The notes below the pieces were generated by a model. That model was not told the origin of the DNA and searched no databases. It was given only the letters and a program-made list of their open reading frames with translations. DNA of 64,000 nucleotides, taken from positions 62,001 through 126,000 of the forward strand of contig NZ_JAKQZG010000014.1 in assembly GCF_024359545.1 (NCBI RefSeq). Direction: 5' to 3'. Below, piece after piece: positions 33,621 through 41,142 of the stretch. The position numbers and the translations under genes were made by a program. This DNA comes from Jiella marina. Its GTDB lineage: Bacteria; Pseudomonadota; Alphaproteobacteria; Rhizobiales; Rhizobiaceae. Numbering within the stretch: the first letter of the stretch is position 1; the number at the start of each line of letters is the position of its first letter.

Positions 33621-34961
33621 ATGGCGACCTCGGATCCTTTCAGCTTCTGTCGGGACTGTTTCACCGAATCGCACGGTTCGGCACGGCGTTGTCGCGCCTG
33701 CGGGAGCCCCCGGATCCTCCGCCACGCGGAGCTGCGATCGCTCGCCATCGCCCATATCGACTGCGACGCCTTCTACGCCAGCATCGAAAAGCGTGACCGC
33801 CCGGAGCTCGCCGATCGGCCGCTGATCATCGGTGGCGGACGGCGCGGCGTCGTCTCCACTGCCTGTTACATTGCGCGAATCCGCGGCGTGCGGTCGGCCA
33901 TGCCGATGTTCAAGGCGCTGCAACTCTGCCCGAACGCAACGGTGCTCAGGCCCGACATGGCGAAATATGCGACCGTCGGCCGATCCGTCCGCGCCTTGAT
34001 GAACGAGATCACGCCTCTCGTGGAACCGCTGTCGATCGACGAGGCGTTTCTCGACCTTTCCGGCACCGAAACGCTCCACCGCGCGCCAAGCGCCCTCACC
34101 CTCGCGCGTCTCGCCCGACGCATCGAGACCGAACTGGGCATCACCGTCTCGATCGGGCTTTCCCACAACAAATTCCTCGCCAAGATCGCCAGCGACCTGG
34201 AAAAGCCCCGCGGCTTTTCCGTCATCGGCCGGGAGGAGACGCTCCGGTTCTTGTCCGACAAGCCGATCGGGCTGATCTGGGGCGTCGGCCAGGCGATGGA
34301 TCGCAAACTCGAGCGCGACGGTCTCCGCGTCATCGGCCAGCTTCAGACGATGGACGAAACCGACCTGATGAAGCGCTATGGCGACATCGGCCGCCGCCTC
34401 TGGCGGCTGTCACGCGGTATCGACGAGCGAAGCGTCAATCCGCGCGGCGAGGCCAAGAGCATCTCCACCGAGACGACGTTTTCGACCGACAAGTCGACGC
34501 GCGAGGAGCTGCTGCCCATCCTGCGGGACCTGTCCGAAACGGTGGCGGCGCGGCTCAAGGCCACCGATCTGGCGGCTTCGGGAATCGTCCTCAAACTCAA
34601 GACCGCGGACTTTAAGCTGCGCACACGAAACCGCCGGCTGGCCGATCCGACACGTCTCGCAGACCGGATCTTCGCGACCGGACGCGCCCTGTTGGAGCGC
34701 GAACTCGACGGCACGCGCTTTCGCCTGATCGGTATCGGCTGCGTCGATTTCTCTCCCGCGACGCGGGCCGACCCGGTCGATCTCGTCGACCGGGGCGCAG
34801 AGAAGCGCGCCAAGGCCGAAGCCGCACTCGATGATCTGCGATCGAAGTTCGGCAAGACGGCGATCGAGACCGGCCTCACCTTCGGTCGGCTGGAACGCCG
34901 CCATCGCGAGACCCAGCCGCCCGATCCGTCCGCAACGGCGCCCGACGTCTCGGCAGAATAG
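33621..34961 (+). CDS. dinB: DNA polymerase IV with N-terminal Cys4 motif
   Basis: Y-family translesion polymerase, 446 residues. The palm motifs [15 protein letters not shown] and [11 protein letters not shown] supply the catalytic acidic residues, followed by the helix-hairpin-helix and little-finger domains. Residues 1-30 add a zinc-ribbon-like motif with paired cysteines C10-x2-C13 and C24-x2-C27 that is absent from E. coli DinB but seen in some rhizobial homologues. No clear GTTC-N7-GTTC SOS box is present in the 87 bases upstream; an inverted GAAC...GTTC pair is there instead. No C-terminal beta-clamp motif was firmly identified. Confidence 0.94.
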
Positions 34962-35071: not shown

Positions 35072-38566
<3,495 letters not shown>

Positions 38567-38746: not shown

Positions 38747-38833
38747 TCAGATCGCGTGGATGACCAAGCTAACAGCGAACACGAAGCTCGAAATTGCGAC
38801 GAGCGAAAGAACATCTTTGACGATGACGATCAT
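38747..38833 (-). CDS. Putative SOS-induced single-span membrane microprotein (28 aa)
   Basis: 28-codon frame with ATG at 38833 and TGA at 38747-38749. It starts MIVIVKDV and continues as one hydrophobic helix with a single charged residue pair (K6, D7) near the start and a His near the end (residues 8-28: LSLVAISSFVFAV then SLVIHAI). GAAGGTG ends about seven bases upstream, a good ribosome-binding site. A perfect GTTC-N7-GTTC box sits 39 bases upstream inside a TTGACA promoter. I recognise no named family. By design it resembles Caulobacter SidA (29 aa, SOS-induced, inner membrane, blocks division), but homology is not claimed. Confidence 0.6.
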   Translation of the reverse strand: MIVIVKDVLSLVAISSFVFAVSLVIHAI

Positions 38834-38871
38834 GACAGCACACCTTCGATATCCCGTTATGATCGGCATTT

Positions 38872-38896
38872 GTTCTTATTTTGTTCTAATTGTCAA
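38872..38896 (-). promoter_or_regulatory. LexA (SOS) box within a TTGACA promoter
   Basis: The plus strand reads GTTCTTATTTTGTTC at 38872-38886, i.e. GTTC-N7-GTTC, an exact match to the LexA site of Alphaproteobacteria (GAAC-N7-GAAC on the coding strand). TTGACA (minus strand, 38896-38891) lies four bases upstream as a -35 element, so bound LexA would cover the promoter. The -10 is not obvious. The only frame downstream before dnaE is the 28-codon frame. Confidence 0.7.
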
Positions 38897-39151: not shown

Positions 39152-39847
39152 TTAGCCCATGTCGAGCGGGACGACCTTGCCGTTTTCGAGGGTGATCGCC
39201 CGATCCATGCGTTTGGCCAGATCGTGATTGTGGGTGGCGATCAGCGCCGCGACCCCCGACTGGCGCACCAGCGCCGTCAGCGCATCGAAGACATAGCTCG
39301 ACGTCGTCGGATCGAGATTGCCCGTCGGCTCGTCGGCCAGAAGCACGTGCGGTGAATTGGCGACGGCGCGGGCGATCGCCACGCGCTGCTGCTCGCCGCC
39401 GGACAGTTCGGCGGGGCGGTGGTGGGAGCGCTTGCCGATGCGCATGTAATCCAGAAGCTCCTGGGCGCGCGAGGCCGCTTCGCCGTGCTTCAGACCCATG
39501 ATCATCTGCGGCATCATGACGTTTTCGAGCGCCGAGAATTCCGGCAGGAGGTGGTGGAACTGGTAGACGAAGCCGATCGCTTGGCGGCGCATGGCCGTGC
39601 GTCGGTCGTCGCCGAGCGTTCCGCAGGCCTCGCCGCCCACATAGACCTCGCCCGTGTCCGGGCGATCCAGGAGCCCGGCGATATGGAGGAGCGTCGATTT
39701 GCCGGCCCCGGAGGGCGCGACGAGCGCCACCATTTCACCGGGGGAGATCATCATCTCGGCCTCGTCGAGGATCGTCAGGCGGTTCTCGCCCTGCTCGTAA
39801 TGCCGGCCGACCGCTTCGAGGCGAAGCGCTGCTTGTTCCACCATCAT
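39152..39847 (-). CDS. lolD: LolD, lipoprotein-releasing ABC transporter ATPase
   Basis: ATPase of the Lol complex that extracts outer-membrane lipoproteins from the inner membrane. From ATG 39847 it is 231 residues. Walker A is APSGAGKST, followed by the family-typical [20 protein letters not shown], the signature LSGGEQQR and Walker B VLLADEP. The ATG overlaps the lolC stop (ATGA), so the two subunits are coupled. A longer frame upstream runs inside lolC and is not needed. Confidence 0.95.
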
Positions 39848-41142
39848 TCGTACCGCAAGGCGTCGACAGGATCGAGGCGGGACGCCCGCCAGGAGGGCGG
39901 GATCGTCGCCAGGAAGGACAGTCCGATGGCCATGCACACGACGAGGATGACCTCGCCGGTCTCCACTTCCGCCGGAAGCTGGCTGAGGAAGTAGAGCTGC
40001 GGGTCGAACAGGACGACGCCAGTGATCCAGGAGAAGAATTGCCGCACGCTCTCGATGTTGAGGCAGAAGAGGACCCCGAGAAGGAAGCCTGCGAAGGTGC
40101 CGACCACGCCGATCGACGCACCGGTGATGAGAAACACCCGCATCACCGCGCCCTTGGTCGCGCCCATCGTTCTCAGGATGGCGATGTCCCGCCCCTTGTC
40201 CTTCACCAGCATGAACAGGCCGGAGATGATGTTCAGCGCCGCGACCAGGACGATCAGCGTCAGGATGATGAACATCACATTCCGCTCGACGGTGAGCGCC
40301 GAGAAGAAGCTCTCATTCTGCTTCTGCCAGGTCACCGTGTAGATCGGGCGACCAGCGGCATCGGCGATATCGGCCTGCATTTCGGCCACCTGATCGGGAT
40401 CGTTGACGAAGATCTCGATCGACTGGACCTGGTCCTCCTGGTTGAAATAGAGCTGCGCCTCGGCAAGCGGCATGTAGACGTAAGCCGCATCGTATTCCGA
40501 CAGGCCGATCTCGAAGATCGCGCTGACGGGATAGGCCTTCACACGCGGCGTGGTGCCGAGAGGCGTCACGTCGCCCTCGGGCGAGACCAGCGTGATCTGA
40601 TCGCCGAGCCTCAGACCCAGCGACTGGGCCAGGCGGCTTCCGATGGCCACCCCCTCACCCTCGTCGAAACCCTTGAGCGATCCGAGGGTGATGTTGTCGG
40701 CGACGGGATCGAGATTCTGCAGATCGGCCTCACGCACGCCCTTGACCAGCGCGCCGCTTGAAGACGTGGCAGGACCGGAGGCGAGAACCTGCCCCTGGAC
40801 CAGCGGCATGACGAAATCGACGCCGGACACCCGGACCACGCGTTTGGCCACCTCGTCATAGTCGGTCAGAGGCTGGTCGATCGGAGAGAGAATCACGTGG
40901 CCGTTGACCCCGAGGATGCGTGTAAGGAGTTCCGCCCGGAATCCGTTCATCACCGACATGACGATGATCAGCGCCGCCACGCCCAGCATGATGCCGACGA
41001 AGGAAAAGCCGGCGATCACCGAGACGCCGGCGTCCCGGCGCCGCGAGCGCAGGTAGCGCCCCGCGATCATCCATTCGAAGCGCGAGAACGGTTTGGTCGA
41101 CCCGGCGCCCCGCCCGTTCTCGGCGACGGAAGTCTCGCTCAT
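39844..41142 (-). CDS. lolC: LolC/LolE-family permease of the lipoprotein-releasing complex
   Basis: Inner-membrane permease of 432 residues: one N-terminal span after [20 protein letters not shown], a large periplasmic MacB-like domain, and three C-terminal spans (from about 290 on, [20 protein letters not shown]). Only one permease gene accompanies lolD here, so the complex is presumably a homodimer, as usual outside gammaproteobacteria. Its start overlaps the proS stop by four bases. Confidence 0.93.

Follow-up and report, generated by a model that had tools for sequence, protein, structure and literature searches.

Related small inhibitors of cell division

The closest described system is SidA of Caulobacter. 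PMC4211646 describes SidA as an SOS-induced peptide of 29 aa that resides in the inner membrane, interacts with FtsW and is suppressed by mutations in FtsW and FtsI. An AlphaFold 3 model that is not of high confidence places the SidA helix on TM7 of FtsW (PMC13396833), and further SidA background is given in PMC13384398 and PMC4117421. Another small membrane protein of Caulobacter, the FtsN-binding DidA, also inhibits division and is induced by DNA damage (PMC4211646), but DidA is 71 aa long and SOS-independent and was set apart from the peptide considered here by description. YneA, SosA and ChiZ are likewise reported in PMC13396833 as DNA-damage-induced small membrane division inhibitors, but they come from other phyla and were compared by description. 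In S. meliloti a translated small frame, sORF25, lies in the dnaE1 5'-UTR, probably in the same place as the gene described below (PMC10117765). The accessible part of that paper gives no function for sORF25, and its presumed identity with the 28-aa frame is drawn from its place; if the two are the same, sORF25 provides independent support for translation of the peptide. We surveyed the mostly open-access literature on SOS and LexA regulation, on small proteins of rhizobia, on SidA elsewhere in the Alphaproteobacteria and on boxes at dnaE, and within it the peptide was not described as an SOS gene. Nor did the survey of this partial, open-licence literature turn up a named rhizobial inhibitor of division under SOS control. 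One paper, PMC11031950, was rejected as its 'Sidak' is Holm-Sidak and not SidA.

The locus analysed here resembles that of Caulobacter SidA (model NF033228) in that the peptide is about 29 residues long, has a single hydrophobic segment and follows closely on GAAC-N7-GAAC, with dnaE downstream. We conclude that the gene is most probably a Hyphomicrobiales member of the SidA superfamily, coding for a single-helix peptide that LexA would repress and that would inhibit late division by acting on FtsW.

Layout of the locus

We analysed one stretch of DNA of 64,000 nucleotides, referred to in full as the window. On the minus strand it holds lolC (39844-41142), lolD (39152..39847), the SidA-like microprotein gene (38747..38833) and dnaE (35072..38566). 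The lolD frame, which is the upstream neighbour of the peptide gene and is open to 39937, had TIGR02211 LolD as its best model with 256.8 bits, under the model cut-off of 307.75. The dnaE gene, encoding the DNA polymerase III alpha subunit, scored 1469 bits on NF004226 and exceeded the cut-off of 1002. The start of dnaE is 180 nt from the peptide stop, and the microprotein therefore does sit just before dnaE in the window, as a preliminary description of this DNA had stated. From the other side dinB (DNA polymerase IV, 33621-34961) converges on dnaE. As the window has no second exact LexA box, dinB is seemingly not controlled by a perfect LexA site here.

The candidate LexA box, which has the alphaproteobacterial SOS box form GAAC-N7-GAAC, is located at 38872..38886 and reads GAACAAAATAAGAAC on the minus strand (GTTC-N7-GTTC on the plus strand). 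A -35-like element, TTGACA, lies four bases from the box (38891..38896, minus strand), and an overlapping one-mismatch box, GAACAAATGCCGATC (38861..38875, minus strand), amounts to a degenerate third half-site 11 nt on. These are followed by a GAAGGTG ribosome-binding site (38841..38847, minus strand) and by the 28-codon frame, whose ATG begins at 38833, whose stop ends at 38747 and whose product is MIVIVKDVLSLVAISSFVFAVSLVIHAI. The exact box, the TTGACA upstream of it and the ribosome-binding site with its 28-codon frame ahead of dnaE were all present as the preliminary description had claimed; the distance from box to ATG was given there as 39 bases and was measured here as 38. An alternative in-frame ATG 12 codons upstream would yield 40 aa, but in the alignment of relatives the conserved stretch starts at the Met of the 28-aa form and not at the upstream ATG.

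Judged by hydropathy only, the best hydrophobic 17-mer in the 28 aa has a mean of 2.54, and by eye the only chargeable residues of the window peptide are K6, D7 and H26. A promoter scan of the window returned no sigma-70-type promoter over threshold, and by eye the -10 in the window looks poor. Scanning between the peptide and dnaE for terminators produced one weak match, with 0.6 expected. The preliminary description had called the peptide unannotated, and in Pfam and NCBIfam scans it matched nothing over cut-off, with weak matches to light-harvesting, ComGE, DUF5337 and similar models; a PDB profile search gave two weak unrelated matches.

Conservation within the family

To follow the frame in relatives, 151 genomes of the family, which appears to be GTDB Rhizobiaceae, were searched. 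A single-sequence search with the window peptide matched 36 of the 151 genomes at E<=1. Thirty loci from this search included 28 with a 27-29 aa frame of common pattern, and the exact GAAC-N7-GAAC was found upstream of 26 of these 28 frames; L028 and L029 were rejected as false matches inside a long membrane protein that is Trk-like by eye. As the single-sequence search was too weak, a profile (A1) was built from the 28 peptides and used instead, and this matched 142 of 151 genomes at E<=1. This threshold admits chance matches, so loci were fetched and read individually. A total of 126 loci from 118 genomes were read; the remaining 24 of the 142 matched genomes, all weaker, were left out. The matches that carried a name (52) were mainly from Mesorhizobium, Nitratireductor and Chelativorans, for example Nitratireductor aquimarinus (L112) and Nitratireductor sp. 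B36 (L118).

When the locus with a box was preferred wherever a genome had one, the exact box was found at most 130 nt upstream in 107 of the 118 genomes read. When the best-scoring locus was always picked, the box was present in 104/118 and lolD or dnaE was near in 102/118. Control patterns counted in the same upstream stretches were rare (reversed pattern 0/118, spacer of 6 4/118, spacer of 8 0/118, GTTC-N7-GTTC 4/118). The check proposed in the preliminary description, that frame and box be conserved in relatives, therefore came out in its favour. Of the 11 genomes without the exact box, one (L016) is cut by a contig end and the other ten are 1-2 bases off by eye. The frame started with ATG in 117 of the 118 genomes and was exactly 28 aa long in 110, and within 1.5 kb of the peptide we found lolD in 80, dnaE in 71 and either of the two in 105.

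Conservation was evident at the level of the peptide as well. Residues D7, S10, L11 and F17 are conserved by position, and D7 and F17 are invariant in the 44 diverse members that make up the 44 rows of profile A3. Among 524 close pairs drawn from 151 distinct 28-codon frames, pN/pS was 0.145 (pS 0.406, pN 0.059), and the shifted-frame controls gave ratios of 1.6 for +1 (14 usable pairs) and 8.0 for +2 (404 usable pairs). Purifying selection on the 28-codon frame is strong. Gathering of the conserved residues on one helix face was not significant (p 0.087).

The nine family genomes without a match include five of 1.1-2.6 Mb. Loss of the peptide in reduced genomes is possible, though a genome of 1.9 Mb (L025) retains both peptide and box. 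Second copies of 32 aa, MRDLLHDIASFVAVSTFIATFAVWAGYLAEKV and kin, were seen at L172 and L204 (G016, G119), with neither lolD nor dnaE within 1.5 kb and with no exact box in 130 nt. Are these copies paralogues under other control?

The LexA box and promoter geometry

The number of boxes in the window was compared with shuffles. The exact box was seen once as compared to 2.1 expected, and one-mismatch boxes were seen 52 times as compared to 52.6 expected, which is chance. The box alone was consequently rejected as evidence: at a chance number in the window it proves nothing by itself, and the case rests on conservation. Genome-wide there were 145 exact copies as compared to 93 of the reversed pattern. 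The form GTTC-N5-TTGTTC stood out with 15 as compared to 2 and includes the box of imuA and that of the peptide. SOS genes of the window's genome carry like boxes at lexA (GAACACAACTAGAAC), imuA (GAACAAAATAGGAAC; identified by a model match under that model's cut-off) and recA (GAACAAATAGAGTAC; one base off by eye).

Family promoters aligned on the box (n=104) gave the consensus TTGAcann-GAACAAAAAtaGAAC-AtAat. TTGAC starts 9 nt ahead of the box in 60 of these 104 promoters and is absent nearby in 24, and a purine-rich ribosome-binding 4-mer precedes the ATG in 103 of 107 relatives as compared to 30 in the shuffle. The box therefore sits between -35 and -10, which is a repression geometry, and LexA is predicted to bind there.

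Relationship to SidA

Two of the peptides found upstream of dnaE in the class, those of G407 and G620 (both family f115), led us to search 120 genomes from the same order. This search resulted in 22 accepted peptide loci, all in f115, with peptides of 29-31 aa such as MARIARETLALASVVGFVWMMCSVAYLAA; five further loci looked like noise and were rejected. The f115 loci had dnaE downstream in 22/22, lolD in the fetched stretch in 13/22 and the exact box at most 140 nt upstream in 18/22. There were 19 distinct f115 peptides, 16 of which were aligned (A5) and scanned, and 16/16 matched the NCBIfam model NF033228 'cell division inhibitor SidA' at E<=10. Eleven scored singly on this model ranged from 13.8 to 72.4 bits, with 5 over the cut-off of 35 (44.3 to 72.4) and 6 at 13.8 to 28.5. 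Because its peptides match the SidA model, f115 would fit Caulobacteraceae.

Profile-profile comparison (hhalign) aligned the Hyphomicrobiales peptides to the f115 peptides ungapped from Met1, at 94.5% for A1 (E 8e-8) and 93.2% for A3 (E 3e-7), both being single-pair E-values. On the A3 model all 16 f115 peptides scored higher than their shuffled versions (p<=0.04), and 14/16 beat natural helices at p<0.05 and 2/16 did not. In the other direction, on the A5 model of f115, 32 of 44 Hyphomicrobiales peptides, the window's included, beat their own shuffles at p<=0.05 and 12/44 did not. On the f115 model the window peptide reached only 13.7 bits, yet none of 948 natural hydrophobic 29-mers scored as high. 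The aligned likeness is short and N-terminal, covering the first 18-21 residues, and within it [KR]6-[DE]7, L9, L11 and F17 are shared with SidA in register. In contrast, the C-terminal half of the window peptide has diverged from SidA, and W19, invariant in the 16 f115 peptides, is F19 in the window peptide.

The curated SidA model does not reach the family. NF033228 was over cut-off in 0 of the 151 family genomes, with no match at all in G000, and P0001 gave no match to NF033228, whose equivalog level is at least 35 bits. As the NF033228 cut-off was not reached, the peptide was not filed under this model. Sub-cut-off matches occurred in 62/151 family genomes; three of the better ones (L431, L432, L436) were read and rejected as other sequences, without box, lolD or dnaE. 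A single A3 member out of 44 gave a weak match to the SidA model (E 0.038). On 14 control genomes the model matched seven, Caulobacter vibrioides among them, and was over cut-off in one.

The comparison with SidA thus goes further than the preliminary description had claimed, as peptides of the SidA model share the place before dnaE and align in register. Features of a wider SidA superfamily were found in the in-register profile similarity, for which the shuffle and natural-helix controls were mixed, in the promoter LexA box and in the lolD-peptide-dnaE locus. We regard the window peptide as a divergent homologue and candidate orthologue of SidA.

Distribution in the order and class

In the order, A3 matched 98 of 199 genomes at E<=0.3; many of the weaker matches lay inside long frames and looked like noise. 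The 24 best full-length extra-family matches with loci had the exact box in 21/24 and lolD and/or dnaE near in 24/24. Over 289 genomes of the class A3 gave 31 matches at E<=0.3, almost only noise. The class matches G549 and G346 were rejected as false in appearance, and G549, the best non-own class match, had neither an ATG start nor a box. Two loci drawn from the NF033228 genome scan had no profile match.

As the class-wide profile search was nearly empty, we searched by position upstream of dnaE. DnaE was found in 270 of the 289 class genomes, 110 were chosen, mostly larger genomes, and 107 dnaE-upstream regions were read once the window's genome and two regions truncated at contig ends had been set aside. 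GAAC-N7-GAAC was found at most 600 nt upstream of dnaE in 20/107, as compared to 1 for the reversed pattern and 0-3 for other spacers, and the opposite orientation, GTTC-N7-GTTC, in 9/107 as compared to 2 for its reversal. The 20 boxed regions come from 12 families, all but one of which lie outside the order, and 19 of the 20 had a hydrophobic ATG frame of 22-48 aa starting soon after the box. When the same positions were tried in 87 unboxed regions, such frames turned up in 38 of 2001 tries (1.9%), and reverse-strand tries gave 3 of 460. Against their own shuffles on the A3 model, 9 of 17 other-order peptides scored higher at p<=0.05 and 8/17 did not, and ten other-order peptides compared with NCBIfam matched no model. 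We consider it fairly likely that SidA is not peculiar to Caulobacter but forms a single branch of an old, rapidly diverging family of SOS checkpoint microproteins whose root lies at lolD-dnaE across the Alphaproteobacteria, that the LexA site credited to dnaE is theirs, and that the SOS division inhibitor still missing from rhizobia and related bacteria comes from this family.

Association of the box with the peptide and alternative explanations

In 20 of the 126 family loci both lolD and dnaE were missing from the fetched 1.5 kb, and the exact box was retained in 12 of these 20 and missing in 8. The neighbours of all twelve were inspected and were named by model at three, lipB at L073 and L165 and a gamma-glutamyltransferase at L185, the latter just below the model cut-off. 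At L177 the peptide and box were seen beside a frame that is MucR-like by eye. With such neighbours it looks as if peptide and box move together as a cassette. Among the 52 named loci lolD was found in 43 and a dnaE match in none, in fetched sequence that extends about 1.5 kb downstream or less. Since peptide and box are also seen at loci where 1.5 kb holds neither lolD nor dnaE, the adjacency to dnaE in itself probably serves no function. These loci bear on the reading that the frame is a leader peptide or upstream frame regulating dnaE and that the LexA box serves dnaE. The position 180 nt before dnaE would fit such a leader, Ribo-seq in S. meliloti puts the translated sORF25 in the dnaE1 5'-UTR and such 5'-UTR sORFs have been suggested as possible uORFs (PMC10117765), and PMC3323433 lists dnaE among genes reported to be SOS-regulated in Caulobacter. 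However, the constant coupling to dnaE expected of a leader or uORF was not found, the loci without dnaE argue against both a leader and dnaE as the intended LexA target, and the conservation is at the amino-acid level, making this explanation very unlikely. The data instead suggest that the LexA site at dnaE belongs to the small gene between and goes with the peptide, with LexA as its predicted ligand.

TisB of E. coli is a LexA-controlled hydrophobic peptide of similar size, with a charged amphipathic helix and an antisense RNA antitoxin. The preliminary description had offered a TisB-like depolarising peptide as an alternative. Such a peptide, made in the SOS response, would slow growth by depolarising the inner membrane, and the size, the hydrophobic helix and the LexA box would fit it. 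This alternative was not supported: the three chargeable residues leave the helix with hardly any charge where TisB has a charged amphipathic one, D7, S10, L11 and F17 are conserved by position, and the peptide and its relatives resemble the division inhibitor SidA, so that depolarisation appears highly improbable. In our judgement it is unlikely that the membrane peptide arose independently under LexA control, acts on a different partner (e.g. an envelope or replication factor) and is SidA-like only in position and hydrophobicity. An independent origin would be consistent with an alignment limited to the N-terminal residues, with the missing W19 and with a curated SidA model that falls short of the peptide, but the locus, the length, the box spacing and the ungapped Met1 register are common to distant orders.

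Proposed role

The reading we prefer is that of a SidA-type inhibitor of division. The frame, the box and its geometry are conserved, the frame is under purifying selection, and locus and register are common with SidA-type peptides. The preliminary description had proposed a LexA-controlled membrane microprotein of the SidA kind, which the conserved frame and box support, with the control and the membrane role as predictions. LexA would occupy the box between -35 and -10 and repress the peptide gene. Upon DNA damage RecA would make LexA self-cleave and the peptide would be produced. Its single helix is predicted to enter the inner membrane, where the peptide may hold the late divisome (FtsW/FtsI/FtsN) inactive and septation paused until repair. 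The most likely target would be FtsW, as reported for SidA; because of the homology, the locus and the control, the 28-aa peptide should act like SidA.

This provides one candidate SOS division-inhibitor gene for rhizobia, present in most of the sampled family genomes, and suggests reassigning a LexA site formerly read as dnaE regulation. It would also be an example of a checkpoint peptide whose promoter and position persist even as its sequence changes until it is barely recognisable.

GAAC half-sites repeat with an 11-nt period in the window (38861-38886) and in relatives. At least two full boxes were found in 27 of the 104 family promoters, and in some relatives the second box is at the equivalent of 38861-38875; multiple half-sites may grade LexA repression. 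AT-rich exact boxes were also seen near two further genes, one for a radical SAM protein of the PA0069 family and one for a C5 cytosine methyltransferase (L032 and L040, both in the window's own genome).
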